Shown one piece after another: positions 5,404 to 32,330 of a stretch of 64,000 nt of DNA. Position 1 is the stretch's first letter; each line of letters starts with the position of its first letter. Both the position numbers and the translations under genes were made by a program. The stretch spans positions 1 to 64,000 of the IMG/VR virus record IMGVR_UViG_3300010883_026628; one strand, written 5' to 3'. The notes under the pieces were generated by a model. It did no database searches and was not told where the DNA came from. It saw only the letters and a list, made by a program, of their open reading frames with translations. The stretch is from a virus.

Positions 5404-6576
5404 ATGGCTACATTTAAAGAAAATAAAAACGTCTCTGACCGATCTGGATCAGATCGACAGAGACATAAAGAAAAGATTGAAAAAGCGATAAAGGACGGGA
5501 TCCATGATATTGTCGCGGATGAATCTATCATTGGACAAGATGGTAAGAAAAAGATCAAGATTCCTGTTAAAGGAATTAAAGAATACCGTTTTGTGTATGG
5601 GGATAATGAGGGTAAGAAGAACATAGGATCAGCCCAAGGAAAAGACATATTCAGAGGGCAAAAAGTGGGTCAAAAAGATAAGGGGTCCCCTGGGACCCCT
5701 AATCAGGCTGGAAAAGATAAGGGCGAAGAATTTTACGAAGTAGAAATTACTCTAGATGAACTAGCTGCTTATCTGTTTGATGATCTTAAGCTTCCCAATA
5801 TGGAGAAGAAGAAATTCAAAAATATTGATAGTAATTCTTATAAGCGACATGGGTATCGAAACGAAGGTATTCGTCCTAGGCTGGATAAGAAAGAAACAAT
5901 TAAGAAAAAAATAAAAAGAAAAAAGAAAGCTATAAAAAATAAAACCCATGATCCGGAAGAGGATGAGCGGTTTGGTTTTCATCACGATGATCTAAGGTAC
6001 CGCTTCATAAAAGAAAAAAAGAAACCGACATCAAATGCGGCTATCTTTTTTATTATGGACATATCTGGATCTATGACGAAGGAAAAAAAATTTTTAGCAA
6101 GAAGTTTCTTCTTTCTGCTTTACCACTTTATTAGATCTAAATACGAAAATACAGAGCATTGCTTTATAGCTCATGATACTAAAGCTGCCGAAGTTACGGA
6201 AGATGATTTTTTCGGTAAGGGCTCAAATGGGGGTACACTTGCATCAACTGGATTAGATAAGTGTTTAGATATTATAGAAACGCGTTATCATCCTAGCACA
6301 TGGAATGTATATGTGTTTCAATGCTCCGATGGTGATAATTGGCCCGAAGACAACGAAGCGGCCCTTATAAGCGCTAAAAAGCTTTCAGACTTAAGTCAGT
6401 TTTTTGGGTATTGTGAAATCGAACCGCGGGAAATTAGATCTAAATGGATTCAGATGTCTAGCCTTTCAGAGCTATTTATCCCTTTAATAAAAGATAGTTT
6501 CAAGATTGCAGAGATCAGAAATAAAGATGATATATGGTTAGCCTTTCAAAGATTTTTCGGAGGATTTCGTGAGTAG
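5404..6576 (+). CDS. yeaH: DUF444 / YeaH-family VWA protein
   Basis: The product is 390 residues and matches the DUF444/YeaH family. The N-terminal helical region and basic linker (KKKIKRKKKAIKNK near 167-180) lead to a VWA-like domain with a MIDAS-type DISGSM at 219-224, then long stretches typical of the family (ARSFFFLLYHFI, ENTEHCFIAHDTKAAEV, WNVYVFQCSDGDNW). In bacteria YeaH is encoded with PrkA/YeaG and SpoVR/YcgB and is linked to stress and starvation responses; its biochemistry is unsettled. E. coli YeaH is about 427 residues. It overlaps the SpoVR-like gene by 8 bases, and the ribosome-binding site for that gene lies in its 3' end. Confidence 0.9.
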   Translation: MATFKENKNVSDRSGSDRQRHKEKIEKAIKDGIHDIVADESIIGQDGKKKIKIPVKGIKEYRFVYGDNEGKKNIGSAQGKDIFRGQKVGQKDKGSPGTPNQAGKDKGEEFYEVEITLDELAAYLFDDLKLPNMEKKKFKNIDSNSYKRHGYRNEGIRPRLDKKETIKKKIKRKKKAIKNKTHDPEEDERFGFHHDDLRYRFIKEKKKPTSNAAIFFIMDISGSMTKEKKFLARSFFFLLYHFIRSKYENTEHCFIAHDTKAAEVTEDDFFGKGSNGGTLASTGLDKCLDIIETRYHPSTWNVYVFQCSDGDNWPEDNEAALISAKKLSDLSQFFGYCEIEPREIRSKWIQMSSLSELFIPLIKDSFKIAEIRNKDDIWLAFQRFFGGFRE

Positions 6577-7873
6577 CTGGAATATAAAAGATCTAGAAAA
6601 ATGGGATAATAAGATTATCGAACTGGCTAAAACTCATAACTTAGATTGGTTTCCAATCGCTTATGAAATTTGTGACTATTATACCATGATAGGCAATATG
6701 GCATACCATGGTATGCCCCTCCATTATAGACACTGGAGTTATGGTAAATCTTTTGAACGAACGCATCAGATGTACAATCTTGGAGCCGAAGGTTTACCCT
6801 ATGAATTAATCATTAATAGTGATCCATCTATAGCATATCTAATGAGAGAGAACCCCTTCTATTTACAATTGTTAATAATGTGTCATTGCGTTGGACATTC
6901 AGATTTTTTTAAAAATAATTTAACCTTCGCAGACACTGGTCCTGAAAATATTATTCAGCGATTTAAGAACGCAAAAAAAAGAATTGATAGTTATATAGAG
7001 GATCCCAGTATAGGTATAGAGAAAGTAGAGCGTATATTAGACTCTGCGCATGCATTATCGATGCACGGGCCGCCCAACTGTAAAGAATATATACCACATA
7101 GAAAAAGAAGGAAAGATCTAATACAGAAGATAAAATCAGGTGATGAATCTGCTAAAGGTAAAAATCCTGATGTCTTTCCCATAGGGGACGAAATCGATTT
7201 GCTAGGCTTTATTTCAGAGATGGCTTTGAACTTAGAAGATTGGGAAAGAGACATTATCGATATTGTTAGACTCGAATCAGCATATTTTATGCCTCAAATT
7301 CGAACGAAGATTATGAATGAAGGGTGGGCTTGCTTTTGGCATTATAGATTAATGCATAAACTAGAGTTGCCCCAAAAGTTTCATATTCCATTCTTAAAAA
7401 GTCATAACCAAGTTGTTAGACCTCATATGGGAAGGATTAATCCTTATCACCTGGGCTTTTACCTCTTTAATAAAATAGAAGAAAGACACGGTTTGGAAGA
7501 GTGCTTTATAGCTAGAGAGGTTTGTCATGACGAATCATTCTTAAGACAGTACTTGACAAAAGAAGATTGTTATGAATTAAACTTATTCTCATATTCTTTG
7601 TATAAAAAAGACTATGTTATTAATGAAATTTCTGACGACGAGGGATGGAAAAATATTAAGTCTTCTTTGATAAAACAAATTGGATCAAACTCGATACCTA
7701 AGATAATCATTAAAGAGCTTAAACAAAATAACGTGTTAAGAATACATCATGAACATGATGGAAGAGATCTAGAGCTAAGTTACGCAGAGAAAGTAGTCGA
7801 TTATATTACCACATTATGGGGCGGTGTTGTTCGGCTAGATACCATAATAGAACATGAGCCATTCGAGATTTAG
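6569..7873 (+). CDS. spoVR: SpoVR / YcgB-family protein
   Basis: The product is 434 residues from a GTG start preceded by CGGAGG at 6558-6563. It has the SpoVR hallmarks: WFPIAYEICDYY, GMPLHYRHWSYGKSFE, YELIINSDPSIAYLM, MCHCVGHSDFFKNN and NEGWACFWHYRLM. The repeated His and Glu residues (HCVGHSDFF, EGWACFWH) suggest metal binding. The family is needed for normal spore cortex in Bacillus and appears in a stress module with YeaH and PrkA in many proteobacteria. It is somewhat shorter than YcgB (about 510). It is sandwiched between its two usual partners. Confidence 0.9.
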   Translation: MSSWNIKDLEKWDNKIIELAKTHNLDWFPIAYEICDYYTMIGNMAYHGMPLHYRHWSYGKSFERTHQMYNLGAEGLPYELIINSDPSIAYLMRENPFYLQLLIMCHCVGHSDFFKNNLTFADTGPENIIQRFKNAKKRIDSYIEDPSIGIEKVERILDSAHALSMHGPPNCKEYIPHRKRRKDLIQKIKSGDESAKGKNPDVFPIGDEIDLLGFISEMALNLEDWERDIIDIVRLESAYFMPQIRTKIMNEGWACFWHYRLMHKLELPQKFHIPFLKSHNQVVRPHMGRINPYHLGFYLFNKIEERHGLEECFIAREVCHDESFLRQYLTKEDCYELNLFSYSLYKKDYVINEISDDEGWKNIKSSLIKQIGSNSIPKIIIKELKQNNVLRIHHEHDGRDLELSYAEKVVDYITTLWGGVVRLDTIIEHEPFEI

Positions 7874-7881
7874 GAGATACC

Positions 7882-9810
7882 GTGAGTAAGAAAAATTTTT
7901 TGAAACTGATAGACGAGCAGAGAAATAAAGCGAAAAAAGAAAAGTTTAAGGGAAGCTTTATAGATTTCTTAAAGATGGTAAAAGATACCCCTAAAATAGC
8001 TGACTCTGCTCATAAAAAGCTATATGACACATTATTCCAGCATGGCGTGTCTATAATCGAAGATAGTGATCCTAGAAAGAATAAAATATTTGATGGTGAT
8101 AATATAAAGATCTATGATTATTTTAAAGATGAATTTTTCGGAGCTGAGCAAGTCGTTTCAAAGATTATGAGATTCTTAAAATCTGCGGCGGCTAGAGGTG
8201 AAGAGTCTAGACAGGTGCTTCTATTAATGGGGCCAGTGGGTGCAGGCAAGTCAGCCATAACAGAGCATGTCAAAAAATCTCTAGAAGGTGTTAGCTATTT
8301 CCATATAAAGGATGATCCACAAAAGGGGAATCCGTTGCAACTCATACCTCGAGGTATTAGAGGCGCTTTCGAAGAAGAACTAAATGTTAAAATAGAGGGA
8401 GATATTTCACCTCCAATTAGATTTAAGCTGCTAGAAGAGATGGATGGGAAATATGAAGATTTTGAAATTCTAGAAACAACATTTTCACAAAGAGGGCGAC
8501 GTGGTGTTGCTTCGGTACCTCCTATGGACGCCAACTCACAAGATGTGTCTGTCTTGATTGGATCAGAAGATATTTCAAAACTGGATTTATATTCAGAAGA
8601 TGATCCTCGAGTTCTTTCGCTTAATGGCGCATTCAATATTGGAAATCGAGGGATAGTAGAGTTTATAGAACTTTTTAAAAATGAGATTGAATTTCTTCAT
8701 ACCATTATAACAGCTACTCAAGAGAAAAGAGTACCGGCACCGGGCAGACATGATATGATTCATTTTGATGGAGTTATTATAGCGCACTGTAACGAAGCTG
8801 AATGGAATCGTTTTCAGAGTGAGCATACTAATGAAGCCATCCTTGACAGAGTTGTGAAGGTTAATGTTCCCTATGTATTAGAGCTAGATCAGGAAATTAG
8901 AATATACGAAAAGCTTTTGTCTAGATCGAGCTTTGATAGTCATATTGCACCGCATACGCTCCGGATAGCGTCGATGTTTAGTGTACTATCTAGACTCAAG
9001 CCGTCGGGTAAATGTGATCTTTTAACAAAAATGAAAATATATAATGGGGAAGATGTTATAGAGAAAGGTAGGGTCAAGAAAATTGACATAAAAGACTTAA
9101 GGGAAGAATCACTACATGAGGGAATGTCTGGTATCTCCACTAGGTTTATTATGAAATCAATTGACTGTGCCCTCTCGGATAGCGACAAGGGCTTTATAAC
9201 ACCAATCTCAATCATGGATACTATAGCCAAGAACTGTAAGGAACAAATTGTTGATGAAGCCTTTAAACAGGAGTGCTTAACAGTATTACAAGATGTGGTC
9301 AGAAAAGAATATCTTAGAATTCTAGAAAGTGAGATTGCGAAGGCTTTTGTGGCAGCGTACGAAGAGCAAGCTCAGTCTTTATTTGAGACCTATCTAGATA
9401 ATGCAGAAGCATTTGCTATGAGATCAAAGATAAAAGACAGAATCACTAACGAAGAGATGGTACCAGACGAAAAGTTTATGGCTACCATAGAAGAAGCTAT
9501 TGGAATAGTCGGTTCATCTAAAGAAGGGTTTAGGGCAGATGTTACCGCATATATGTTTGCAAAAGTGCGGCGGGGCGGGACTGTAGATTATAGAAGTTAT
9601 GAACCATTAAAAGAAGCTATTGAAAGTTATCTCATTAATAGTGTTAAAGACATGGCAAGAATTGTTACAAAATCCAAAACTAGAGATGATAAGCAGAAAA
9701 AAAAGTACAATAATATGATAAAAACAATGATTGATGATTATGGTTATACTGAGAGCTCTGCGGAAGAGATTCTAGTTTATGCAAGTAATAATCTTTGGAG
9801 GGATTCATGA
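7882..9810 (+). CDS. prkA: PrkA / YeaG-family serine protein kinase (AAA+)
   Basis: The product is 642 residues, essentially full length (E. coli YeaG is about 644). The N-terminal AAA+ domain has Walker A GPVGAGKS at 117-124 and the PrkA signatures YFHIKDDPQKGNPL, IRFKLLEEMDGKYEDF, GSEDISKLDLYSEDDPRVLSLNGAFN and NRGIVEFIELFKNEIEFLHT. The C-terminal region corresponds to the PrkA kinase-like domain. PrkA proteins are described as Ser/Thr kinases, and some also as AAA+ proteases, acting in sporulation or nutrient stress. The start is GTG at 7882 with AGGAGAT upstream, 8 bases after the SpoVR stop. All key motifs look intact. Confidence 0.92.
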   Translation: MSKKNFLKLIDEQRNKAKKEKFKGSFIDFLKMVKDTPKIADSAHKKLYDTLFQHGVSIIEDSDPRKNKIFDGDNIKIYDYFKDEFFGAEQVVSKIMRFLKSAAARGEESRQVLLLMGPVGAGKSAITEHVKKSLEGVSYFHIKDDPQKGNPLQLIPRGIRGAFEEELNVKIEGDISPPIRFKLLEEMDGKYEDFEILETTFSQRGRRGVASVPPMDANSQDVSVLIGSEDISKLDLYSEDDPRVLSLNGAFNIGNRGIVEFIELFKNEIEFLHTIITATQEKRVPAPGRHDMIHFDGVIIAHCNEAEWNRFQSEHTNEAILDRVVKVNVPYVLELDQEIRIYEKLLSRSSFDSHIAPHTLRIASMFSVLSRLKPSGKCDLLTKMKIYNGEDVIEKGRVKKIDIKDLREESLHEGMSGISTRFIMKSIDCALSDSDKGFITPISIMDTIAKNCKEQIVDEAFKQECLTVLQDVVRKEYLRILESEIAKAFVAAYEEQAQSLFETYLDNAEAFAMRSKIKDRITNEEMVPDEKFMATIEEAIGIVGSSKEGFRADVTAYMFAKVRRGGTVDYRSYEPLKEAIESYLINSVKDMARIVTKSKTRDDKQKKKYNNMIKTMIDDYGYTESSAEEILVYASNNLWRDS

Positions 9811-10052
9811 ATAATATAGGCGCTAGCGAAATCTTAGTTGTAGCAGCGGCAGTTATGTCATACGCAAATTTGCACTTAGCGATTGTAACGCTAGCTTTAG
9901 GTGTCCTAGGTGCTGTCGTAAGATATTCTATCGCTCATAATGAAAAGCAAGAAAAAGCTAAAGAGATTGAAGGTGTAGCCGAGAATTTCACAAATCTTCT
10001 TTCCGGTTTAACAAGTGGAATTGGACCAAAAGACAAAAGTAATCTGCATTAA
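9807..10052 (+). CDS. small membrane protein in the PrkA operon
   Basis: The product is 81 residues from ATG 9807, which overlaps the PrkA stop (ATGA) and has GGAGGG at 9797-9802. A TTG four codons earlier is possible but would swallow the ribosome-binding site. Residues about 7-43 form one or two hydrophobic helices (EILVVAAAVMSYANLHLAIVTLALGVLGAVV), followed by a charged, probably cytoplasmic, tail. The function is unknown; it could tether a partner in this operon to the membrane. Confidence 0.65.
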   Translation: MNNIGASEILVVAAAVMSYANLHLAIVTLALGVLGAVVRYSIAHNEKQEKAKEIEGVAENFTNLLSGLTSGIGPKDKSNLH

Positions 10053-10055: not shown

Positions 10056-11261
10056 ATGTTATCAACACCAACCCCCATAAACGCAGGTGAGATAGATCTT
10101 TTTTTTGAAGAGCTTAATGATTTTTGTCAACAGCAAAAATCAAAAGAAATGGTGTATTTTGGTATTGAAGAAATTTGCAACATCGCGTTCGCGGAAACTT
10201 ACAGATCTATAGTAGACTTTGAATTCACCAATAAACATATTAGAGATTTATTAGTTTGTCAAATGGAGGCCCTTCAATCATATAGCCCTAATGCGGCAGT
10301 GTATCTTCCTTTTTTTATAAATGTGTTATCTAAAAAAACGATTAACTTAAATCACGACAAATTTATGAATGCTATTAATCCAGCAACGAATGAAGCGATT
10401 AATGATATAATATCATCACAATTCGAGCATTCTAGTATACTTCATCCGGAAGATTTTAAGTCAATTTTTGAAGCCAACGGCTTTATGTCAAGTTTCTCTA
10501 TCAAGAAATCTAACAGCTTTCATAATGCGTGTGTTTTTGATTCAGGACTAACTATAAATTGCAACTTATATTCTGGTTTTTTTAAAAAAAATAAATCAAC
10601 TATAGAATTTCAATATCCGCAAATTGTTATTTATGACGGATATATAAAAGATGTCTCTGAAATTAATCTGATCTTACAGACTTCTCTTGAAAAAGATGTT
10701 CCTTTTTTGATTTTTGCCAAAGGCGCTAGTCATGATGTTTTGAATACATGCGCTGTTAATCTAGATCTAAAGAAGTGCAAAGTTTGTATCATAGATCCGG
10801 GACCTATTTTCTGGAAAGATCAAGCACAGCAGTTATACAATATATTAGAGATCTCTCCTTATGGAGATGTAACAGGTAGGCTATTAAATAACTTCAAGCT
10901 AGAAAGTAATTCTAATACAACAGTTTTAATAAAACAAAATGAAGTCTTTATTAAGGGAGATGCGTTTGATCTTAATAGCAATGCAAAGACAACATTTTTT
11001 TTAAATGATCAATCTTGGGCAAAGAGAGGTTTAATTTTTGATCAATTAAACTTTTTCGCTAGTACTATGCAGCAAACAGCTACATGTGGTGTTATAAATA
11101 ATCAATCATTTTATGACATAACGGGAATAACTATTAATGAAGTTACTGGTTTAAGTAATACGTTTCATCCAGCATTTTCTGTTATTAGAGCGTTAAAAGA
11201 AGCAGAAACTATTATTAATAAAATAGTTAATATTGGTTATTTCATAAGGCTCAAAAGATAA
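10056..11261 (+). CDS. divergent GroEL-like protein lacking the ATPase residues
   Basis: The product is 401 residues. About 105-390 can be aligned by eye with GroEL. [14 protein letters not shown] matches [34 protein letters not shown] with [21 protein letters not shown] matches the apical ADKKISNIREMLPVLE with [31 protein letters not shown] matches VAAVKAPGFG, and [16 protein letters not shown] onward matches the C-terminal equatorial segment. The ATP-binding DGTTT loop and the catalytic Asp398 region of GroEL have no counterpart, and the protein is about 150 residues shorter than GroEL. It may be a substrate-binding or adaptor protein that works with host GroEL. It starts 4 bases after the membrane-protein stop. 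Confidence 0.65.
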   Translation: [401 protein letters not shown]

Positions 11262-11262: not shown

Positions 11263-11724
11263 TTGAATATTAAATGGAAAAATTCTGTTGGCAATCAATT
11301 CGAAATATCAGAAATTATCGATTTAATAAAAGAATATCCATCATCTCAAATACACGTAGGGACAGACTCACACTTTAAGTCAGGAAAACTAATTTTTGCC
11401 ACAGTTATCGCTGTTTATGCCCCGGGAGAGTGTTCAAGATATTTTTTTAAGAGATATTTAGAAAATGGTAAATATAGAATAGGACTTTCATCTAGGCTCC
11501 TAAAAGAGGTGCAAGACTCTATTGAAACAGCAGCTACAGTCCAAGAGCTAATAAGTCCAAATAGAGAAATATTCGTTCATGCCGATATCAGCAGCGACGC
11601 TAAAAATAAGAGTAATATTGTATATGAACAAGCCAGACGGTGGATAATGGCTATGGGATTCGGTTGTAGAATGAAGCCAATCTCGTGGGCTTCATCATCT
11701 ATCGCTGATTTACATGCAAAATAA
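11263..11724 (+). CDS. YkuK-like (DUF458) RNase H-fold protein
   Basis: The product is 153 residues. It has the features of the YkuK/DUF458 family: QIHVGTDSHFKSGKLIFATVIAVY at the front with the first conserved Asp, IFVHADISSDAKNKSN with the second, and a final GFGCRMKPISWASSSIADLHAK with the last. The fold is RNase H-like and the family is a predicted nuclease without proven substrate. The start appears to be TTG at 11263, one base after the chaperonin-like gene's stop; no ATG lies near. It ends the operon that begins with YeaH. Confidence 0.75.
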   Translation: MNIKWKNSVGNQFEISEIIDLIKEYPSSQIHVGTDSHFKSGKLIFATVIAVYAPGECSRYFFKRYLENGKYRIGLSSRLLKEVQDSIETAATVQELISPNREIFVHADISSDAKNKSNIVYEQARRWIMAMGFGCRMKPISWASSSIADLHAK

Positions 11725-11759: not shown

Positions 11760-12221
11760 ATGGATGGTGTAAAACACTTGATCGAGTGTCAATGTATATT
11801 ACCACAATATAAAAAGAGGAACAATCCACCTTTTCATAAGTTTGTAGTCTTTTCTATAATTGATGATGTTGATACTGTTTTAGAAAAATTTGCCCAATGT
11901 AATAATTGTGGGATCGTGCACCGAGTATATGACGTATGTAAATCAGAGATCGCAGTTGGACATGAGTCGTTAAACAGTCTACCGACAAAAGAAGACTTTA
12001 CGTTAATGCTACCTTCTGGAATTGGTGAAATCTTGGCCACATATGATTGTGAACTCTATATATGGGAACAAGTGTCCTTTATATTAAATCATAATAAGGT
12101 TGGAGAAAAAATTGTGATCATAAAAGATGAAATTGATGGTAAGATCCAGGGAAAATTTTTGTCGTATGTAGGCGGTAATCGATTTACTATAGAACCCTTC
12201 ATAACAGACACAGAGTTTTAG
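11760..12221 (+). CDS. unknown protein with a possible zinc site
   Basis: The product is 153 residues. Cys pairs at the N-terminus (ECQC) and near residue 46 (CNNC) could bind zinc. The C-terminal half is an alpha/beta domain (YDCELYIWEQVSFIL, KVGEKIVIIKDEIDGKIQGKF). AGAGG lies just before the ATG. I believe similar proteins occur in marine T4-like phages, but I know of no function. It begins a run of three small genes. Confidence 0.6.
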   Translation: MDGVKHLIECQCILPQYKKRNNPPFHKFVVFSIIDDVDTVLEKFAQCNNCGIVHRVYDVCKSEIAVGHESLNSLPTKEDFTLMLPSGIGEILATYDCELYIWEQVSFILNHNKVGEKIVIIKDEIDGKIQGKFLSYVGGNRFTIEPFITDTEF

Positions 12222-12438: not shown

Positions 12439-12624
12439 ATGTCTGATATTGCTAACAAGTGGCAAGAAATTAAAGTACTTATTGAGTCACTAGAAGTTGA
12501 CGTAGTAAAGAACGCGAATGGAAATTCGTCGGCTGGTGTGCGCGCCAGAAGAGGACTAAGAACGTTAAAAGGCGAAGCTGCTTCACTGGTTAAGCTTTCT
12601 TTGGAAAGTGATAAGAGTAAGTGA
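12439..12624 (+). CDS. histone H1-like Hc1-family protein
   Basis: The product is 61 residues with the pattern of the Hc1 family of bacterial histone H1-like proteins: an IESLE-D-K helix, a GN-SAGVRARRGLR turn and basic segment, then a second helix ending in Lys/Ser. Chlamydial Hc1 has the equivalent LLESI-H-D-K, GNKAA-RVR and LEK-AK arrangement. It probably coats or compacts DNA. Its start follows the previous stop by 3 bases. The match rests on a short motif, so confidence is moderate. Confidence 0.55.
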   Translation: MSDIANKWQEIKVLIESLEVDVVKNANGNSSAGVRARRGLRTLKGEAASLVKLSLESDKSK

Positions 12625-20903: not shown

Positions 20904-22796
20904 ATGTTCGATACCCCGTTTAAAGAAGAAATTCCAGATATTATCTTTGTCGCAGACTTTTATGCTAAAGATATCCCAGGTGGCGCTGAACTAACTACTC
21001 AGGCCTTGATAGATAGTGCTCCAGAGAATATTAATATATCAGCTATATACTCAAAAGATCTTACAATGGAGTTAATGCAAAAGTACAAAGACTGTTATTG
21101 GATATTTACAAATTTTTCCGGAATTAATCTAAACCTAATACCTACCGCTGCATCTAATCTAGATTACTCTATTATAGAGTACGATTATAAGTTTTGCAAA
21201 TATCGCTCTATAGAAAAACATCAGCATATTGAAAATGCAGAATGTGATTGTCATGAGCAAATTCATGGAAAGATGATCTCTGCATTCTTCCTAGGCGCCA
21301 AAAATGTTTGGTGGATGTCTGAGGCTCAGGAACAACGATATATCGACCGATTTCCCTTTTTAGGAGAAATAGAGTCAGTAGTATTAAGCTCTGTTTTCGA
21401 TGATAAATTTTTTATAAAAATTGCTGACCTGAATAAAGAAGAAAAAGACAGAACGGGTTGGCTGATTCTAGAGTCGACCAGCTGGATAAAGGGCACTGAT
21501 GATGCTGTAGAACATTGCGAAAAAAATAATCTAGATTTCGAAAAACTTTCCGGCTTATCGCACACTCAGGTTCTAGAAAAACTATCCTCTGCAGAAGGGC
21601 TGGTATACCTTCCCAGGGGTGGCGACACATGTCCTCGATTAGTTATCGAAGCTAAGATGCTAGGGTGCGATTTAGTTTTAAATGAATATGTTCAACACAA
21701 GAATGAGATTTGGTTTAATACCACTGACAGCTTCGACACTAGCGCTTATCTTTTTGCCGCTCGTGAAAGATTTTGGGATGGTATAATTTCTAAGATGAAT
21801 TGGTCACCAACAATTTCAGGTTATACGACTGTTTATAACTGCGACGAAAATGAATACCCATGGGAAAAATGCATTGAATCGATGTTAGGTTTTTGCGATG
21901 AAGTTATTATCATCGACGGTGGATCCACAGATGGTACATGGGAAAAATTAATAAAGATGTCTGAATTAGATTCCCGTCTAGTAGTTGAGCAAAATATTAT
22001 AGATTGGGACCATCCACGCTTCGCATATCGTAGTGATGGAATGCAAAAAGCATATGCACGCTTAAAGTGCTCTTCTGACTTTTGTTGGCAAATGGATAGC
22101 GATGAGTTTGTTCTTCCAAAAGACTATAAGAAAGTCAAAGATTTAGTCAAGAGATTCCCAAAGTTAACTGAATTAGTAGCCTTACCAGTCGTTGAATTCT
22201 GGGGAGGTTACGATAAAATACGCGTAGACGTTAACCCATGGAAGTGGAGAGTATCAAAAAATATCCCTCAAATAACCCATGGCATCCCCCTAGAGCTTCG
22301 AAGGGAAGATGAGGATGGAAATCTATATACTGCACCGGGCAGTGACACATGTGACTATATTCATCCTGAAAGCTTTAAGAGAACAAAGTTTTTGGCTTTC
22401 TATTCTGAAGAAATTGAGCACCATCGAAGAAATGCATTAGTAGGTAATCATGATAGTTTAGAAAAATTCCAAAGCTGGATAGCCATGGCTACCGAAAGCA
22501 TTCCAACCATTTATCATATGTCATGGTTCGACTTAGAAAGAAAGATTAATCTATATAAGAATTTTTGGTCTAAGTTTTGGCAATCTCAATATAATATGCC
22601 CCAGGAAGATACTCCGGAAAATAATATGTTTTTTAATAAGAAATGGTCTAGTGTAACCAATGAAGAAATAAAGGAGTTAGCAATCCGTCTAGGTACTGAG
22701 ATGGGTGGTTGGATATTTCATAATAAGATTGACTGGAACGCTAAAACCCCTCATATCACCATCACTCACGGTTGCAAAGAGTTTCTGGAGAATTAA
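20904..22796 (+). CDS. two-domain glycosyltransferase (GT-B-like + GT2)
   Basis: The product is 630 residues. Residues 1 to about 280 resemble a GT-B fold (IIFVADFYAKDIPGGAELTTQ, then GLVYLPRGGDTCPRLVIEAKMLGC). About 300-600 is a GT2, GT-A domain: GYTTVYNCDENEYPWEKCIES, DEVIIIDGGSTDGTWEKL, and MDSDEF as the DxD motif. The two halves probably act in sequence or one has become a binding domain. It heads the cluster and follows the repeat-rich intergenic region. Confidence 0.75.
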   Translation: MFDTPFKEEIPDIIFVADFYAKDIPGGAELTTQALIDSAPENINISAIYSKDLTMELMQKYKDCYWIFTNFSGINLNLIPTAASNLDYSIIEYDYKFCKYRSIEKHQHIENAECDCHEQIHGKMISAFFLGAKNVWWMSEAQEQRYIDRFPFLGEIESVVLSSVFDDKFFIKIADLNKEEKDRTGWLILESTSWIKGTDDAVEHCEKNNLDFEKLSGLSHTQVLEKLSSAEGLVYLPRGGDTCPRLVIEAKMLGCDLVLNEYVQHKNEIWFNTTDSFDTSAYLFAARERFWDGIISKMNWSPTISGYTTVYNCDENEYPWEKCIESMLGFCDEVIIIDGGSTDGTWEKLIKMSELDSRLVVEQNIIDWDHPRFAYRSDGMQKAYARLKCSSDFCWQMDSDEFVLPKDYKKVKDLVKRFPKLTELVALPVVEFWGGYDKIRVDVNPWKWRVSKNIPQITHGIPLELRREDEDGNLYTAPGSDTCDYIHPESFKRTKFLAFYSEEIEHHRRNALVGNHDSLEKFQSWIAMATESIPTIYHMSWFDLERKINLYKNFWSKFWQSQYNMPQEDTPENNMFFNKKWSSVTNEEIKELAIRLGTEMGGWIFHNKIDWNAKTPHITITHGCKEFLEN

Positions 22797-22798
22797 AG

Positions 22799-23503
22799 AT
22801 GCCAAAAGTATCTATAATTGTACCGGTTAAAAACTGCGGTAAAACAATCAACAAATCAATAAAGTCAGTGCTAGATCAAACATATACTGACTTCGAAATA
22901 ATCGTTGTTGACAATAATTGTACTGATGATACAATCAAAAAAATTCGATCGCTAAAAGATGATAGAATAAAAGTAGTTGAATGTCATATTCCTGGTATAG
23001 TCCCAGCATTAAATACTGGACTAAAAAACGCGACAGCTCCGTTAATTGCTCGTCAAGATGGCGATGATGTCTGGTATGTGGACAAACTGGAAAAGCAAAT
23101 AAAGATCTTTGATAATAGGGATAATATTGATATATGTGGAACTCAAATAAGACTAGTAACAGCAGCCGGTATTGTCACTGATGACGAATTTCGCTATCCA
23201 CTAAACGATACAGCGATAAAGTCCTGGCTTTTGACTGGTAAGAATGCTATAGCGCACCCTTCAGTAATGTTTAAAAAAGAAGTATTGTTAAGGATCGGTG
23301 GTTATGATGATTCATACCCTATTGCAGAAGATCATCATATGTGGTTAAGGTGTATCAAATGGTTTAACTTTTGCAATTTAGGAGAGGTTCTGGTGGACTA
23401 TAATTCTAATCATAATCCAAAATATGACCCCCAAATTCCATTATTGGCTTCTGAGGCTCAATTTAAGTTATTAAAACACACAGGGTTTGTAAAAGTATGC
23501 TAA
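22799..23503 (+). CDS. GT2-family glycosyltransferase
   Basis: The product is 234 residues starting MPKVSIIVPVKNCGKTI, a textbook GT2 N-terminus. It has the nucleotide-binding DFEIIVVDNNCTDDT and the DGDD metal site (IARQDGDDVWY). The ATG at 22799 has CTGGAG before it; an earlier in-frame start at 22772 lies inside the previous gene and is unlikely. It overlaps the next gene by 7 bases. The sugar it moves cannot be read from sequence. Confidence 0.85.
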   Translation: MPKVSIIVPVKNCGKTINKSIKSVLDQTYTDFEIIVVDNNCTDDTIKKIRSLKDDRIKVVECHIPGIVPALNTGLKNATAPLIARQDGDDVWYVDKLEKQIKIFDNRDNIDICGTQIRLVTAAGIVTDDEFRYPLNDTAIKSWLLTGKNAIAHPSVMFKKEVLLRIGGYDDSYPIAEDHHMWLRCIKWFNFCNLGEVLVDYNSNHNPKYDPQIPLLASEAQFKLLKHTGFVKVC

Positions 23504-24279
23504 CTAGTCTACAAATAGGACAAAATGGTCGTTTAGGAAACCAAATGTTTCAATATGCGGCTTTAGCGTCCGTTGCCTTCACCAGAGGGTTTAACCATTA
23601 TTTGCAAAAAAATGATGATGTTGACTTATGGAAAATATTCAAGATGGAAGGTGTAGACATCTTGACAGAAGAGATAGCTAATACATTACAATACCGATAT
23701 CCCGAACCTGACTTTCATTTCAATGCTAGCGCATTTTTAGTAGAAGACAATACTGATATGTTTGGGTATTTTCAGTCACCAATATATTTTGGTAATTGTT
23801 TTGAGATGATAAAAAAGACATTTACTTTTAAAGATGAGATAAGTACCGTAGCAACTACTACTTTTAAGAAACACACAGATACCCGACCAATATGCTCTAT
23901 ACATATACGGAGGGGTGATTATCTAACTAAGAGTAACTACCACCCTCCGTGTACAATTGAGTACTATAACGAAGCAAAAAAACGTGTTCTCGCAGCCACT
24001 AACAACAACATTAAATTTCTTCTATTTGGTGATGATCATCAATGGATCAAAGATAACTTATTAGACGATCGTTCCACTTTAATTGAAGGAAATACTCCAG
24101 AGGTAGACATGTGTATGATGTCAAAATGTTCTGCACATATTATATCTAACTCTTCTTTTTCATGGTGGGGAGCTGTGTTAGGAAATTTTCAGGGTGTAGT
24201 GGCTCCCAGTATGTGGTTTGGTCCTGATGGACCTAAGAGATGGGACACAATTTATATCCATGGATGGAGTGTGGTGTGA
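23497..24279 (+). CDS. GT11 alpha-1,2-fucosyltransferase
   Basis: The product is 260 residues. The start (GRLGNQMFQYAAL), the IHIRRGDY motif (GDP-fucose binding), and the C-terminal ISNSSFSWWGAVLG, FGPDGPKRWD block are characteristic of GT11 alpha-1,2-fucosyltransferases. It would add L-fucose to a terminal galactose-type residue. The donor can be made by gmd and fcl homologues in the same cluster. It shares 4 bases (GTGA) with the next gene, which is a GT6 enzyme. Confidence 0.88.
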   Translation: MLTSLQIGQNGRLGNQMFQYAALASVAFTRGFNHYLQKNDDVDLWKIFKMEGVDILTEEIANTLQYRYPEPDFHFNASAFLVEDNTDMFGYFQSPIYFGNCFEMIKKTFTFKDEISTVATTTFKKHTDTRPICSIHIRRGDYLTKSNYHPPCTIEYYNEAKKRVLAATNNNIKFLLFGDDHQWIKDNLLDDRSTLIEGNTPEVDMCMMSKCSAHIISNSSFSWWGAVLGNFQGVVAPSMWFGPDGPKRWDTIYIHGWSVV

Positions 24280-25019
24280 CTAGTATAGGTATAATTTTCA
24301 TTGGTACCGGCCCCTATATAGAATTTCTTGACGGATTTCAAAAAAGGGTAAATCGTTTTTTTTGTCCTAAAATAGAGAAGAAAATCTACGCGTTTACAGA
24401 CTGTATGGACCATTCTAGTCTAGATTATAAAAACATAGAGTCTATTCAAATTGATCATGTGGGGTGGCCTTTTATAACTTTACATCGTTTTAAATTTATG
24501 AACTCGATATCTGATAAGCTAAGATCTCATTCTCATATTTTCTTTATCGACGCCGACTTGTGGCCTGTAGATGATATTCATTTTTCTGATTTCTTTGATA
24601 CGGGAGAAAGTCATGACTTTGTAGCTGTCCAGCATCCAGGATTTGTCGATAAGCCCGGGACATTTGAGAATAATAAAGAATCCACCGCCTTTGCATACTC
24701 AGGCCTTTATGATTTATCTGTGTATCGTCAGGGTTGCTTTTGGGGTGGTACGGTTGAGTCTATACTCGCTATGATATCTACTTGCGAGAAGAACGTAGAC
24801 ACAGATACAAACAACAATATTATAGCAAAATGGCACGATGAATCTCATATGAATAAATATTTTTTACAAAATCCCACCAACGTAAAGACCTTAAGTCCTG
24901 GATACGCAACACCAGAAGCGCCAGGCTACGATTTCGTTTGGAGGACCCATAAAGTTAAAATGGTTCACTTGAATAAAGATCCTAAAGAGTTTCCTAGATT
25001 CGAAGGTGCAGGTAACTAA
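24276..25019 (+). CDS. GT6-family (ABO-type) alpha-1,3-glycosyltransferase
   Basis: The product is 247 residues from GTG 24276. It has the GT6 signatures: KKIYAFTDCMD, WPFITLHRFKFM, FFIDADLWPV (DxD-type DAD), AVQHPGF, FWGG, and WHDESHMNKYFL with LSPGY. GT6 includes the human ABO transferases, which add Gal or GalNAc to fucosylated galactose. As I recall, bacterial members often carry NxN in place of DxD, and a GT6 gene is known in cyanophage P-SSM2. It overlaps the GT11 gene by 4 bases. An upstream ATG at 24240 is out of keeping with the family start. Confidence 0.85.
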   Translation: MTSIGIIFIGTGPYIEFLDGFQKRVNRFFCPKIEKKIYAFTDCMDHSSLDYKNIESIQIDHVGWPFITLHRFKFMNSISDKLRSHSHIFFIDADLWPVDDIHFSDFFDTGESHDFVAVQHPGFVDKPGTFENNKESTAFAYSGLYDLSVYRQGCFWGGTVESILAMISTCEKNVDTDTNNNIIAKWHDESHMNKYFLQNPTNVKTLSPGYATPEAPGYDFVWRTHKVKMVHLNKDPKEFPRFEGAGN

Positions 25020-25021
25020 TA

Positions 25022-25975
25022 ATGAAAATTTGTATTATTGGCCCCGGAATGATATCTATACCTCCTATTGGCTGGGGTGCTGTTGAAATTTTAATAGATG
25101 ATTATAGAAATAGTCTAGAAGCTCTAGGTCACGAAGTATACATCATTAATACAAAAGATATGGCATTAGCTGCTTTCATTACCAACAATCTTTCTCCTGA
25201 CTTTGTCCACGTCCAATATGACGATTATATCGACTTAGCCAAAGATCTGGTGTGCAAAAACGTAGCAATTACTAGCCACTACGCTTATCTAGAGAACAAA
25301 TCTAGATGGAATCACGATTATAACAATTTTTTTATAAAGACATGTCTCTCAGATATAAACATATTTTGTTTGTCTGAAGAGATCGCTAGTGTATACCGCG
25401 ACGCATGTGTTTCTGATGATAGGTTATTCGTGACCAGGAACGGCGTTCGTAATGACTTATTTGACTTTAACGAAGAATGCTTAAAACCTAATGATAGCAT
25501 TTACTTAGCAAAAATTGATGAAAGAAAAGGCCAATATAAATACCGTCATATAGAAAGTTTATGGTTCCACGGTGGAATTTCTGATAATCGATTTCCTGAC
25601 TGGCACCCTCGCTATTTAGGCGAAGTGACAAAGCAAGAACTGTATAAGCGTCTAACACAGTGGGCAAATTTGGTTTTGCTAAGTGATGGTGAAGCCCATC
25701 CACTAGTTTGTATGGAGGCGCTGTCTGCCGGACTAGGATTGGTTTTATCTGAGTGCGCCACTGCAAATCTAGATGTTAAGCTACCATTCATAGATATTAT
25801 TCCTAATGACAGACTAGACGATATTGAATATGTTTCCGGTGTTATAGGCAGAAATAGAGAGAAGTCAATTACTATGAGGAGTGAAATAAAAGAGTACAGT
25901 ACATTCTTTTCTTGGTCGGAAACAATCAAAAGCAATTATATACCAATTATTGAAAAAATAATAGGTAAAAAATAA
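25022..25975 (+). CDS. GT4-like glycosyltransferase (copy 1 of a tandem pair)
   Basis: The product is 317 residues with a GT-B fold. The N-terminal donor-side loop is CIIGPGMISIPPIGWGAVEI, and the C-terminal SDGEAHPLVCMEALSAG carries the acidic pair typical of GT4. It starts 2 bases after the GT6 stop. It is clearly related to the next gene (same start, same C-terminal block). The sugar is unknown. Confidence 0.75.
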   Translation: MKICIIGPGMISIPPIGWGAVEILIDDYRNSLEALGHEVYIINTKDMALAAFITNNLSPDFVHVQYDDYIDLAKDLVCKNVAITSHYAYLENKSRWNHDYNNFFIKTCLSDINIFCLSEEIASVYRDACVSDDRLFVTRNGVRNDLFDFNEECLKPNDSIYLAKIDERKGQYKYRHIESLWFHGGISDNRFPDWHPRYLGEVTKQELYKRLTQWANLVLLSDGEAHPLVCMEALSAGLGLVLSECATANLDVKLPFIDIIPNDRLDDIEYVSGVIGRNREKSITMRSEIKEYSTFFSWSETIKSNYIPIIEKIIGKK

Positions 25976-25979
25976 CGAT

Positions 25980-26921
25980 ATGAAAATTTGTTTAATAGGT
26001 CCTGGAATTCTACCAATTCCTCCCACTGGATGGGGCGGTTGCGAAATATTAATGTGGAATCTAAAGTGCGAACTAGAAAATCAAGGCCATGATGTCCTAA
26101 TAGTTAATACTAAAGATCTACGAAAAGCTATTAACGATACGAATATATGGTCTCCTGACTTCGTTCATCTTCATTATGATGAATATGCTGATATTATGCC
26201 CTACATAACTGCTCCTCGAGCAATGACTAGTCATTATCCCTATCTAGACTACCCTGCAAAACGATCTGGCTACGAATGGATATTTCAGAAGTTTTCACAA
26301 AACCATTCTCATATTTTTAGTCTTTCCGATAGAAACAGTTATCACTTTAGAATTAATGGGGTCAGTTCAGATCTCGTCTGGGACTGGATGTATGGGGTTC
26401 CATCATCAGATTTCCGCTTTGTTGAAAGTCCCGTACATCATAATAAGACGATATGCTTAGGGAAAATAGAGCCAAGAAAGTTCCAATCTTTCCTACAAAA
26501 TGTTAAAAATATAGATTTTGCCGGTCCTATAGCAGATAATAGATTTAAGAAATTATCAAGTTATTTAGGAATCTGGACTAGGGATCAAGTCTATAATAAC
26601 TTAACTAATTATGCTAATTTAGTTTTGTTTAGCGATGGCGAAGCAGCTCCGCAGGTTGTACCTGAAGCCCTCATCGCCGGCTGTGGGTTAGTACTTTCAG
26701 AAGAAGCCGCGGCCAACCTAGACTTAAGTCTACCATTTATAGACGTCGTAAAAACAGATTGTTCTTCTGATGAGCTTGATATTATAATAAAAAATAATAG
26801 AATTAAATCGTTAGGTATGCGGAGCCAAATTAGGAAATATGGCCTAAATAAATTTGGTATGACTAGCTGTACAAAGTTATATATCAAAAAAATAGAAAAG
26901 ATTATTGCTGATGCTAGATAG
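25980..26921 (+). CDS. GT4-like glycosyltransferase (copy 2 of a tandem pair)
   Basis: The product is 313 residues. It begins KICLIGPGILPIPPTGWGGCEI and has SDGEAAPQVVPEALIAG at the C-terminal end, closely parallel to the preceding gene. The pair probably arose by duplication and diverged in acceptor specificity. The ATG follows the upstream stop by 4 bases. Confidence 0.72.
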   Translation: MKICLIGPGILPIPPTGWGGCEILMWNLKCELENQGHDVLIVNTKDLRKAINDTNIWSPDFVHLHYDEYADIMPYITAPRAMTSHYPYLDYPAKRSGYEWIFQKFSQNHSHIFSLSDRNSYHFRINGVSSDLVWDWMYGVPSSDFRFVESPVHHNKTICLGKIEPRKFQSFLQNVKNIDFAGPIADNRFKKLSSYLGIWTRDQVYNNLTNYANLVLFSDGEAAPQVVPEALIAGCGLVLSEEAAANLDLSLPFIDVVKTDCSSDELDIIIKNNRIKSLGMRSQIRKYGLNKFGMTSCTKLYIKKIEKIIADAR

Positions 26922-26929
26922 GATAGAAT

Positions 26930-27931
26930 ATGCTTAATTTTGAAAATATAGATGAAAAGTTTGTAAGAACAGTTAATAGCGAAGAGTGGAAAGAACTCCA
27001 GTCAAAATATAATAAGTGCAGTGATATATACGTTCTGGGTCACGGTGGAAATATGGCCGTTGCAGACCACACAGCTATTGATATGACGCGCCTTTCTAAT
27101 GGGACAAAAAATGCGATATGTCCAGGAAGTTGTGTTGTGGCAACCTCATATATTAACGATACAAATTTTGATCAATGGATGGTTGCCTGGCTTCAGTCTA
27201 GAACCTCAACAAGAACGAAGTCTCAAATGTCAAATTCTCTTGTGTATGGGATATCATCATCTGGAAAATCAAAAGATGTAATCAAAGCGCTTCAATGGGC
27301 ATCTGACAATGGAATGGAAGTATGTCTAATCACTGCAAAACCAATAGAGCCAGAAATAAAAAGCCTAACTCAAGTAGTATTAAACGTAGATTATTATCAT
27401 ACAGCAGAGTGCCTTTCCCTGTTATTACAGTATCAGTTGACTCACGGCTCCGGAAATGTTTGTCCCCCGATTGGCCAAAATACACCGGAAGAGTTAGAGA
27501 GATTAAACTGGAAAGGAACAGAGATCAGGAAGCATAGTTATCCTGATGAAAAAGTAAATATAGGTGTAGATTTCGATGGTGTTATTCACAAATGTAGTAA
27601 AGGATTTTTTAATGGTACGATTTACGATGATCCAATTGATGGTTCAAGGGAAGCCTTAAAGCAGCTTTCTGAAAATAATGTTGTGATTATATACACATGC
27701 AAAGCAAAGCCAGATCGAGGATTAGTCGATGGAAAAACTGGTACAGAATTAGTTTGGGATTGGTTAAAAAAGCATAATATGGCGCAATACGTTTCAAAAG
27801 TAACAGCTGAAAAACCTCGTGCTAAATTCTATATTGATGATAAAGCAATAGAATTTAAGAGCTGGTCCCAAGCGTTAAAAAGAATAAACCTTGGTACTAA
27901 TGTCCTTAAAGATTCTAATGAAAAGTCTTGA
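26930..27931 (+). CDS. SIS isomerase - HAD hydrolase fusion
   Basis: The product is 333 residues with two domains. Residues about 20-175 form a SIS phosphosugar domain (YVLGHGGNMAVADH, YGISSSGKSKDVIKAL). Residues about 208-325 form an HAD domain with the catalytic GVDFDGVIH at 212-220, an IYTCKAKP switch segment, and KFYIDDKAIEF as the last acidic motif. A GmhA-like isomerase joined to a GmhB-like phosphatase would make sense for heptose synthesis, but the substrate is inferred. A shorter SIS protein and a free HAD protein are also in the cluster. Confidence 0.75.
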   Translation: MLNFENIDEKFVRTVNSEEWKELQSKYNKCSDIYVLGHGGNMAVADHTAIDMTRLSNGTKNAICPGSCVVATSYINDTNFDQWMVAWLQSRTSTRTKSQMSNSLVYGISSSGKSKDVIKALQWASDNGMEVCLITAKPIEPEIKSLTQVVLNVDYYHTAECLSLLLQYQLTHGSGNVCPPIGQNTPEELERLNWKGTEIRKHSYPDEKVNIGVDFDGVIHKCSKGFFNGTIYDDPIDGSREALKQLSENNVVIIYTCKAKPDRGLVDGKTGTELVWDWLKKHNMAQYVSKVTAEKPRAKFYIDDKAIEFKSWSQALKRINLGTNVLKDSNEKS

Positions 27932-28631
27932 TCATAAAATTTTAGGAAAGAAACTGTCTTTAAAGAAAGCAAAAAGCCAAATAGACAGTTTGATTATCGA
28001 TTTAGAGCAGCAACATTACTTGCACAGAAAGATCCAATTCTTGCTCGATATTCGAGGATATCTAAAGGTTAATAATATTTCTGGGTCTTATGTCGAATTT
28101 GGTTCATTCAAATCAGAAATGCAATATGCTGCTTTTAAAATTTTAGAAGAGACCGATTGTATCACTAGTTACGTAGGCTTAGATTCATTTAGCGATAATC
28201 TAGAATTTTCCGATGAAGATAAAGATCATAATATATATGAGATCCCCACCGATTTTAATTGTGATTTCGAGACAGTTGATAAGTTCGTAAAGAGTAATAT
28301 CGGTGAAAAAGCCGTACTAATTCAGGGCGATTTTCGCACAAACAAGATAAAAGAAGAATTTAAAAGTGCTGTTAATGACATTTCCGTAGCAGTTTTTGAT
28401 TGTAACTTTGTGTCTTCAACCACCGCTGCTTTAGAACTCTTAGATGAGCTTGTTATTCCAGGATGCGTGTTATTTTTTGATGATTATTTAACTAATTTTA
28501 ATAATGGCGTTCCAGCAATGCCAGATTTAATTGATACATTTTTTAGCAAGTCTAGATTTGAATTATTAGATCATGGTTCTTACCCACCATTCGGAAAATC
28601 GTTTATTGTAATAGAGAGAGGTCGACAATGA
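27918..28631 (+). CDS. TylF-like SAM-dependent sugar O-methyltransferase
   Basis: The product is about 237 residues from ATG 27918 (other in-frame starts up to 27891 exist inside the previous gene). Motifs typical of the TylF/MycF class are SGSYVEFGSF (SAM loop), YVGLDSFSD, IQGDFR and FDDY near the end. The family methylates sugar hydroxyls with SAM and a metal ion. It overlaps the next gene by 4 bases (ATGA). Confidence 0.7.
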   Translation: MKSLDHKILGKKLSLKKAKSQIDSLIIDLEQQHYLHRKIQFLLDIRGYLKVNNISGSYVEFGSFKSEMQYAAFKILEETDCITSYVGLDSFSDNLEFSDEDKDHNIYEIPTDFNCDFETVDKFVKSNIGEKAVLIQGDFRTNKIKEEFKSAVNDISVAVFDCNFVSSTTAALELLDELVIPGCVLFFDDYLTNFNNGVPAMPDLIDTFFSKSRFELLDHGSYPPFGKSFIVIERGRQ

Positions 28632-29398
28632 AAGAATGGATAGAGATAGATAGCGATTTCGCAACTTTTGTTTCCGGAAAATCTATTGCTTTAGTTGGTC
28701 CTTCCAGTTCGACTATTGGTAAAGATTATGGAAAAAAAATCGATAATTTTGATATTGTTGCTCGGGTTAAGAGCTTTAACTATCCGGATGATATGAAAGG
28801 TGACTTAGGGTCTAGGACAGAGATTTTGTATACTACAAATCCGCTTGATCGTGCAGATCTAAAAGATTTTTCTGAATATCCCCATCCTGCCACTGGTAAA
28901 TTGACATATCATTATGAAAAATATGATAATTTCAAACAGTATGAAGGGATTACTTTTGTAGTTTCTACATATCCTCAAGATGAATGGTTTTCTAATCGTT
29001 ACGTTGGTGATTTTGATAAGCTAAGAAAATCCGGAATAACACAATCTAGATTTGTAAATTCAAAATCGTATTTTGAGGCAAGGAATTCTACCAACAGACC
29101 AAATTCAGGCTTCAGCGCGATTATAGATATTCTAAGCTTTAATATTAAGTCACTTCACATTTTTGGTCTAGATTTTCATAGAGTAATGTATAGGGGTGGA
29201 TACCAAAACTCTCTTTATTCTCATGAGACGATTAAGACAGATACCAGTTGTAGTGACGGCCCGGACACACATCAACCAGATTTACAGTACCAATATTTTA
29301 AGCAGAAAATATGGAAGAAGGACGTTCGTGTTAACGTTGATGATGCTTTAAGTGAATTTTTAAGTGATCCTAAATATGATTGGATATATAGGGGTTAG
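28628..29398 (+). CDS. GT29 sialyltransferase-like protein (copy 1)
   Basis: The product is 256 residues. GKSIALVGPSSS, then KKIDNFDIVARVKSF resembles sialyl motif L, and RPNSGFSAIIDILSF with LHIFGLDFHR resembles sialyl motif S. GT29 enzymes move sialic acid from CMP-sialic acid, and a CMP-sugar synthetase lies 2 kb downstream. A second related protein sits at 30300. Whether the donor sugar is sialic acid, Kdo or another acid cannot be read here. Confidence 0.7.
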   Translation: MKEWIEIDSDFATFVSGKSIALVGPSSSTIGKDYGKKIDNFDIVARVKSFNYPDDMKGDLGSRTEILYTTNPLDRADLKDFSEYPHPATGKLTYHYEKYDNFKQYEGITFVVSTYPQDEWFSNRYVGDFDKLRKSGITQSRFVNSKSYFEARNSTNRPNSGFSAIIDILSFNIKSLHIFGLDFHRVMYRGGYQNSLYSHETIKTDTSCSDGPDTHQPDLQYQYFKQKIWKKDVRVNVDDALSEFLSDPKYDWIYRG

Positions 29399-29400
29399 TT

Positions 29401-30300
29401 ATGAAGGTCTTAATAACAGGTGCCGCGGGATTTATAGGATTTGCATTAGCGAATAGATTAAATAAAGATCATGATGTTACTTTACTCGATTTTGATACGC
29501 GTTGGAAGAAGTGCCATGATTCCTTTAAAAGATATTCAGCTGATATATCCGCTTATGAAGCATTAGACAATTTAGAAGAAAATTTTGATATAGTTTTTCA
29601 TTTAGCCGCGCAGTCATCTGGGTATATTTCTTTAATACGTCCGGAGGATGATGTTGACTGGAATGCCAAGGGCACTTTAAACATATGTAATTTTTGTCGA
29701 AGGACTGGTATAAAAAAGATTGTGTATGCTTCGTCCATGGCCATCTATGGTGAAGGTGACAATTTATCAGAGTCAAATTCCCCAAACCCAATTTCTAATT
29801 ATGGTGTATCAAAGTTAGCAGGGGAACTGTACATAAAGGTTTTTAGCAATTACGATCTAAATTATACAATATTTAGGTTGTTTAATACATACGGTCCATC
29901 TCAAGATTTAGATAATTTGAGACAAGGAATGGCTTCAATCTATTTGGCGCAGTCTTTAAACGGTAATGTAATTAAAGTGACCGGTTCTTTTGATCGATAT
30001 CGTGATTGTGTATACATAGATGATGTGATTGATGCGTTTGAGCTATCATTAAAGCCAGTAACAGATAATGAGGTTTATAATGTAGGAACCGGTGTATCAT
30101 CCACAGTTGAGGATTTAATAGAAGTTATATTAGACGCTCATGACAAGCCAAGAGAAGAGTTTCAAGTTGTAAATGTAGGAAGCCATGATGGAGATCAGCA
30201 CGGTAATTATGCAAATTGTTCCAAGTTAAAATCGATTGGGTGGAAACCAAAAGTTTCTTTAAGGGAAGGGATAAGAAGATTTTATGAGGCGGTTAAGTAA
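29401..30300 (+). CDS. NAD-dependent sugar epimerase/dehydratase (SDR)
   Basis: The product is 299 residues, an extended SDR: GAAGFIGFALA binds NAD, FHLAAQSS follows, and YGVSK with the upstream SSMAIYG forms the catalytic Tyr/Lys/Ser set. FRLFNTYGPSQ and YIDDVIDAF are typical of UDP- or GDP-sugar 4-epimerases and dehydratases. It separates the two GT29-like genes, so it may prepare the acceptor or donor sugar they use. It shares one base with the next gene (TAATG). Confidence 0.78.
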   Translation: MKVLITGAAGFIGFALANRLNKDHDVTLLDFDTRWKKCHDSFKRYSADISAYEALDNLEENFDIVFHLAAQSSGYISLIRPEDDVDWNAKGTLNICNFCRRTGIKKIVYASSMAIYGEGDNLSESNSPNPISNYGVSKLAGELYIKVFSNYDLNYTIFRLFNTYGPSQDLDNLRQGMASIYLAQSLNGNVIKVTGSFDRYRDCVYIDDVIDAFELSLKPVTDNEVYNVGTGVSSTVEDLIEVILDAHDKPREEFQVVNVGSHDGDQHGNYANCSKLKSIGWKPKVSLREGIRRFYEAVK

Positions 30301-31106
30301 TGCCGTTTATTACAAATGAGGGTTTTACTGAATTCATTAAGGGCGCTCGTGTTGCGTTAGTCGGTCCCGGTGCCAGCGCTTCAACCCATGAGCAAGGTAA
30401 GCTAATAGACGGTTACGATTATGTTGCTAGAGTAAAGTCGTTTTTTATCCCGGAAGAGAAAAGAGAGTCACACGGTTCTAGAATAGACTTTCTTTATACT
30501 GATAATGAACAGACAAATGACGTATTGCCTGGTGATACAGTAATCGTTCAGGGCGATAAACAAATAATTCAAATGCATCCTGATAATATCCAGAAAAGAG
30601 TTGATATATTACAAAACGATATAAAAGTTGTAATTTCGACATGTCCTAAAGCTGAATGGTTTTTCCATAGATTTGTTGGTGCATTAAACGGTATGGCTGG
30701 TTTAACTAATGTTAGAATTATGCCAGATGAACCCTACATGCAAATAAGGCAAGAGACCATGAGACCCAACGCTGGCTTTTCTGCCATAATAGATCTAGTC
30801 TCATTACCAATATCAGAACTGTATATTACCGGTATCGATTTTTATCGTTCTTTATACCGCGATAGTTATCTAAACTCTCTTTGGACAAAAGACACTATAC
30901 TGAATATGATAAATTCTCCTGATGGTCAAACCCCGGATGGAAATCCCGATTATCATGATCCGGATAAGCAGTTTAAATATTTTAAGCATAAAATATATGC
31001 TACAGATGATCGTATAAGAGTTGATCCATTTCTTAAAAAAGCTTTAGAAGATGATCGGTATGAAGATTTTGAAACGGCAATGGGGTTATATGAGCAAAAG
31101 AATTAA
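30300..31106 (+). CDS. GT29 sialyltransferase-like protein (copy 2)
   Basis: The product is 268 residues and parallels the gene at 28628: GARVALVGPGAS, then LIDGYDYVARVKSF (motif L) and RPNAGFSAIIDLVSL, LYITGIDFYR (motif S). The paired VVISTCPKAEWFFHRFVG block also matches copy 1. It overlaps the CMP-sugar synthetase start by 17 bases, tying donor activation to transfer. Confidence 0.7.
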   Translation: MPFITNEGFTEFIKGARVALVGPGASASTHEQGKLIDGYDYVARVKSFFIPEEKRESHGSRIDFLYTDNEQTNDVLPGDTVIVQGDKQIIQMHPDNIQKRVDILQNDIKVVISTCPKAEWFFHRFVGALNGMAGLTNVRIMPDEPYMQIRQETMRPNAGFSAIIDLVSLPISELYITGIDFYRSLYRDSYLNSLWTKDTILNMINSPDGQTPDGNPDYHDPDKQFKYFKHKIYATDDRIRVDPFLKKALEDDRYEDFETAMGLYEQKN

Positions 31107-31761: not shown

Positions 31762-31762
31762 T

Positions 31763-32326: not shown

Positions 32327-32330
32327 TACT

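Follow-up and report, generated by a model that had tools for sequence, protein, structure and literature searches.

A short, highly divergent chaperonin paralogue without a recognisable ATP site in uncultured giant phages

The stretch of DNA analysed here, hereafter called the window, comprises the first 64,000 nucleotides of the IMG/VR record IMGVR_UViG_3300010883_026628, a 66-kb record which is linear according to IMG/VR and is therefore probably a fragment. The open reading frame at positions 10056–11261 (plus strand, ATG start, stop codon included) corresponds to 401 predicted amino acids and was annotated as a short chaperonin paralogue, hereafter called sCPN, on the basis of PHROG and NCBIfam GroEL matches, predicted fold and family membership. 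It is preceded on the same strand by genes of the YhbH/YeaH family (5404–6576; TIGR02877, E=3e-118, below the cut-off of that model), the SpoVR family (6569–7873; PF04293, E=8e-118) and the PrkA AAA+ serine-kinase family (7882–9810; PF08298, E=4e-129). The interval between PrkA and sCPN contains an 85-amino-acid membrane-like protein (9795–10052), weakly holin-like (PF09682, below cut-off), which evolves at nearly the rate of sCPN. Directly downstream lies an RNase H-like gene (11263–11724, plus strand; PF04308, E=1e-22), a conserved neighbour by synteny. It is followed by the gene for a protein of 153 amino acids with no assigned family (11760–12221, plus strand), which is one of the genes found most constantly beside the short chaperonin and had no matches in named phages, and by a 61-amino-acid protein with a match to the histone H1-like Hc1 family (12439–12624; PF07432, E=1.9e-9), which adjoins PhoH and is conserved across these phages. 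A long run of plus-strand ORFs at 20904–40460 includes glycosyltransferase matches at 20904, 38050 and 39300; downstream of it are a baseplate-wedge gene at 46223 and, past that gene, two very long ORFs of 1820 and 1123 amino acids (50040–58874).

A Pfam search of sCPN returned no match, so general annotation misses the short chaperonin, and the best phmmer match among PDB sequences had an E-value of only 0.0026. The PHROG family 5725 (PHROG_5725, 'chaperonin groEL') matched residues 146–266 (E=1.8e-6). The best NCBIfam match, GroEL3_Chlamy (NF038369, E=7.4e-8), covered only residues 114–236 and did not reach the family cut-off, with 31.5 bits against a curated threshold of 600; PRK12849 GroEL (E=3.9e-5) was also far under its curated cut-off. 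When a profile of 52 relatives was compared with E. coli and phage GroELs (the E. coli reference being taken from MG1655), the match reached E=4e-27 over 430 columns. The resemblance to GroEL is thus real, though at the limit of single-sequence detection, and sCPN is almost certainly a genuine, highly divergent group I chaperonin.

The AlphaFold2 model of the window protein, built from an alignment which contained family members only and no GroEL, had a pLDDT of 90.5. All of the best 50 PDB matches listed by Foldseek were GroEL/Hsp60 structures, with E-values down to 1.2e-18; the alignments extended over about 530 columns, and the best TM-score, 0.59, was to GroES-bound closed states. A core member of the family, L076, was modelled with a pLDDT of 92.4 and matched closed GroEL with E 5e-24, a TM-score of 0.76 and an rmsd of about 5.4 Å. 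A three-domain chaperonin fold, and not an unrelated one, is therefore predicted along the whole chain, with the equatorial domain cut down. A preliminary description of the locus, made from the sequence alone, had recognised a GroEL-type protein with an apical domain, about 150 residues short; both points hold, sCPN having about 147 residues fewer than the 548 of E. coli GroEL. It had placed the match at residues 105–390 or so and regarded the N-terminal equatorial part as missing. The similarity stands, but its starting point does not, since residues 1–105 (10056–10370, plus strand) also belong to the chaperonin: in the AlphaFold and Foldseek comparisons the protein is a trimmed three-domain subunit which aligns over its whole length.

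In the model and in the alignment to E. coli GroEL, residues 1–105 are a remnant of the N-terminal equatorial half and form an N-terminal strand, a long helix, a β-hairpin and further helices. The hairpin (residues 33–42; 10152–10181, plus strand), also present in the model of L076, is shortened and occupies the position of the stem-loop which in GroEL connects adjacent subunits inside one ring. At the other end of the chain, a C-terminal equatorial helix and last strand are predicted at residues 373–397 (11172–11246, plus strand), and the segment corresponding to GroEL 425–490 which should precede them is deleted. The β elements which pair subunits within a ring, namely the strands at both termini and the hairpin of the stem-loop, are still predicted in the models of short chaperonins.

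Conservation of the ATP site was scored at nine GroEL residues (G32, D52, D87, T89–91, D398, G415 and D495). Among 95 non-redundant short proteins none of the nine was kept in 40, one in 47 and two in 8, whereas all nine were kept in the 14 full-length GroELs of phages, which bears out the earlier view that the protein differs from complete phage GroELs such as that of phage EL. The DGTTT phosphate loop (GroEL 86–91) corresponds in the window protein to PNAAVY (residues 78–83, P78–Y83; 10287–10304, plus strand), without ATP residues, and Asp398 is replaced, so that the reported absence of the loop and of the catalytic aspartate was correct. Nor is an intact ATP site present within the N-terminal 100 residues; all that remains of the site is an acidic residue at the place of D52. 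Throughout the family G32, D87, T89–T91, D398, G414/G415, N479 and D495 of E. coli GroEL are replaced or deleted, G/S/A-rich residues occupy the place of DGTTT, and the D52 position is often still acidic. We infer from these replacements that the short chaperonin would not hydrolyse ATP. In several independent alignments the GroEL segments from about 107 to 121 and from about 425 to 490 were deleted, although their edges shifted somewhat. These segments contain or adjoin K105, A109, E434, R452, E461, S463 and V464, the positions of GroEL that form contacts between its two rings.

The apical domain (residues 163–317 approximately; 10542–11006, plus strand) was delimited from alignment and model and includes most of the PHROG match; relative to E. 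coli GroEL the clade of the window protein additionally lacks about 45 residues from the region 330–375. Two helices line the apical groove. In helix H (residues 200–213; 10653–10694, plus strand), placed by the model and the family alignment, E202 and L207 are conserved and N204 occupies the place of Leu234. In helix I (residues 226–237; 10731–10766, plus strand), T231 corresponds to T261 of GroEL and the invariant N235 to N265. The equivalent of Asn265 was found in 95 of the 95 short proteins, and those of Thr261 and Glu232 in 91 each. Mean pairwise identity of the short proteins was higher in the apical (28.9%) than in the equatorial domain (16.4%), whereas in full-length GroELs (41.2 and 46.3%, respectively) the intermediate and equatorial domains were most alike. 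The helix H region was conserved equally well in both groups (41.4% in short and 36.7% in full-length proteins). The character of the groove differs: the Leu234 position, hydrophobic in all full-length proteins (100%), is His, Asn or Asp in nearly all short ones and hydrophobic in 3%, and the Y199 position is hydrophobic in 15%. The Y199 and V263 positions are mostly polar or mixed, while L237 and F204 are retained. The short proteins accordingly lack the hydrophobic groove by which clients and GroES are bound. Judged from these alignments, the apical groove is retained yet re-purposed, its hydrophobic wall now being polar. That it is conserved but polar argues for one specific partner and not for promiscuous hydrophobic clients or GroES.

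When viral contigs and named phages were scanned directly with the sCPN protein, no relatives were found, because the gene evolves too fast for single-protein searches. The family was instead reached through its neighbours: scans with SpoVR and PrkA gave 118 related loci, and an iterated HMM search within these found a short chaperonin in most of them, nearly always directly 3' of PrkA. The gene order is YhbH-SpoVR-PrkA-(85-aa)-short chaperonin-(RNase H-like)-153 aa-70 aa-61 aa-PhoH. A 52-member alignment proved too diverse to scan collections with, and one of 11 members was used in its place; it identified 71 viral loci, some of them new, in which the downstream neighbours were kept and the PrkA cassette was often not nearby. 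In total 95 non-redundant short proteins with intact ORFs were collected, about 50–170 residues shorter than GroEL. A fragment or assembly error was ruled out as the origin of the short form, since 95 distinct intact relatives have common deletions. This is a large family with fixed synteny, found only in uncultured giant phages; among named phages tblastn and Foldseek detected full-length chaperonins and no short form, and no such family was found described in open PMC papers. The sole match in genome_contigs, L164, is a 101-kb contig (PBIO01000025.1) binned in a Halobacteriovorax MAG and, judged from length and match, present also as an IMG/VR record. The binning hints weakly at a predatory bacterium as host, too weakly for Halobacteriovorax to be claimed as such.

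Pairs of short chaperonin genes at 50–82% identity had dN/dS values (NG86) mostly between 0.07 and 0.25, many pairs being saturated at synonymous sites and giving no value; these ratios indicate that the gene is under purifying selection. It is at the same time the fastest-evolving gene in its neighbourhood. Mean identity among the six closest relatives was 48% for the short chaperonin and 89% for PrkA, and in five large genomes 27% for the short protein and 48% for full-length GroEL.

Full-length GroEL (TIGR02348) was present in all 11 of the records that encode the short protein and measure 200 kb or longer (G002, G007, G014, G019, G020, G026, G035 and G041–G044), in a separate operon tens to hundreds of kilobases from the short gene. 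In G019, for example, the short gene occupies 267427–268593 and that of GroEL 95172–96737. None was found in the window's own 66-kb record, metagenomic records being possibly incomplete. The nearest relatives of the window protein are likewise on contigs of only 19–51 kb, so that for this clade the co-occurrence is extrapolated from more distant relatives. In a phylogenetic tree all short proteins lay on one side of a branch with 100/100 support, and the GroELs of phages with short proteins formed one clade (97/92), outside which fell two GroELs from records where the short protein was not found. The pair of short protein and full-length GroEL thus appears to be old and to have been inherited together. 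Short proteins and full-length GroELs are separated by a branch of about 3 changes per column, so long that the tree does not resolve the GroEL lineage from which the short protein arose; sequence and model together point to an ancient split from GroEL. Cpn10 was detected in one of the 11 large records, G043, which carries all three genes, and in two others which have full-length GroEL and in which the short protein was not found. The Gly-Met-rich tail at the C-terminus of E. coli GroEL is absent from the full-length phage GroELs L122, L125 and L129.

GroEL and the full-length phage GroELs (EL gp146, AR9, OBP) have the same whole-chain fold and profile homology with the short protein, which differs from them in its missing ATP site, its length, the deleted ring-to-ring segments and the polar groove. 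The protein gp146 of phage EL assembles into double rings and is an active ATPase (PMC7185714); the window protein has neither the full GroEL length nor the ATPase residues of the EL/AR9 type. The chlamydial GroEL3 (NF038369) is likewise a divergent extra GroEL copy, but the match to it is far below cut-off. The engineered apical minichaperone of GroEL has in common with the short protein an apical binding face without ATPase, whereas the short protein retains three domains and its groove is polar, not hydrophobic. The eukaryotic group II proteins BBS6/MKKS, BBS10 and BBS12 are, like the short protein, fast-diverging paralogues beside a working chaperonin, and it is this trait that recurs in the 11 large records. 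BBS6 and BBS12 are chaperonin-like proteins with an altered ATP motif which have been reported to bring a client together with CCT in BBSome assembly (PMC5534436). The BBS proteins differ in their group II origin, in having insertions and not deletions, and in being eukaryotic, so the likeness is one of working principle only.

By analogy, we tentatively favour the reading that the short chaperonin, an ATPase-dead paralogue, assists the GroEL of the same phage as a client adaptor or assembly factor, although we would put this at somewhat less than an even chance. The protein would work ATP-free; its groove would bind one particular phage protein, its chaperonin body would dock this client on the full-length phage GroEL, and the latter would then carry out ATP-driven folding. 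Consistent with this are the loss of the ATP site and ring-to-ring segments, the apical location of the constraint and the GroEL in every large record, and the rarity of a hydrophobic residue at the Leu234 position fits a specific client. Binding of a phage protein, which had been among the first proposals, is possible and forms part of this reading. Against it, the full-length gene is distant and in another operon, and the intra-ring β elements still predicted would also allow a self-assembled ring. Those neighbour-pairing elements, with a full-length partner in every large record, would equally suit a subunit which joins a phage or host GroEL ring, or forms an alternative one, and so alters ring size, client range or cycle. 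This is unlikely, since the equatorial domain shows little sequence conservation (16.4% pairwise), the segments for contacts between rings have been deleted, and a concerted ring would presumably be poisoned by a subunit without ATP binding. A stand-alone, ATP-independent holdase or scaffold, an oligomer, perhaps a single ring, holding one tail or head protein without GroEL as a natural relative of the minichaperone, appears about as improbable. The constraint concentrated on the apical groove and the glycosyltransferase and baseplate-wedge genes downstream in the window are compatible with it, and the isolated apical domain of GroEL is reported to suppress aggregation (PMC4973282). However, the general hydrophobic character of the groove has been lost, and the constant presence of full-length GroEL would be left unexplained.

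The distribution of Cpn10, not detected in 10 of the 11 large records with both proteins and present in two with GroEL where the short protein was not found, suggests a substitute for GroES which would cap or regulate phage GroEL. We consider this very unlikely: the idea is weakened by G043 with its three genes, co-chaperonins of the T4 gp31 type are too divergent for the Cpn10 search to exclude, and host GroES could serve phage GroEL. The preliminary description had also suggested that the protein joins host GroEL rings or acts as a decoy. Both are less likely than cooperation with the phage's own GroEL, given the GroEL in all large records, the deleted ring-to-ring segments and the polar groove. 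Rapid evolution relative to PrkA and full-length GroEL would suit a protein which acts against host GroEL/GroES or a host defence, as a decoy or as an inhibitor; with the positions for the GroES mobile loop and clients (Y199, L234, V263) mostly polar or mixed, and with wide retention in a fixed neighbourhood, unlike patchy counter-defence genes, such a role seems very doubtful. A decaying, pseudogene-like groEL relic might also be short and without catalytic residues, but is scarcely credible in view of the intact ORFs of 95 proteins, the invariant N265 equivalent, the low dN/dS values and the synteny fixed across many giant phages.

A broader formulation, in which giant phages have a two-part system of an ATP-driven GroEL and a dedicated ATPase-dead paralogue, the latter either choosing a phage client or standing in for GroES, comes close to an even chance without reaching it. 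Viruses of prokaryotes would then have their own version of the BBS/CCT arrangement, and the short proteins would be the first viral family of group I chaperonins to lack the ATP site naturally. ATP hydrolysis is considered an inseparable part of what chaperonins do. In diverse giant phages an entire clade of group I chaperonins has lost the ATP site and retained a remodelled groove, and has endured next to a functioning GroEL. It offers a compact natural system for the role of a subunit without the motor and for the question which phage proteins need private folding.

The YhbH-SpoVR-PrkA genes (5404–9810) represent a stress/sporulation cassette carried by giant phages. An obligate partnership of this cassette with the short chaperonin was rejected, as many relatives keep the latter without the cassette nearby. 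For the operon theme of PrkA and YhbH, an analogy with the MoxR-vWA chaperone pair of jumbo phages (PMC7824862) was considered. PrkA relatives are encoded in 209 viral_contigs stretches, and among named phages mainly in Thermus phages, for example phiYS40 and TMA.
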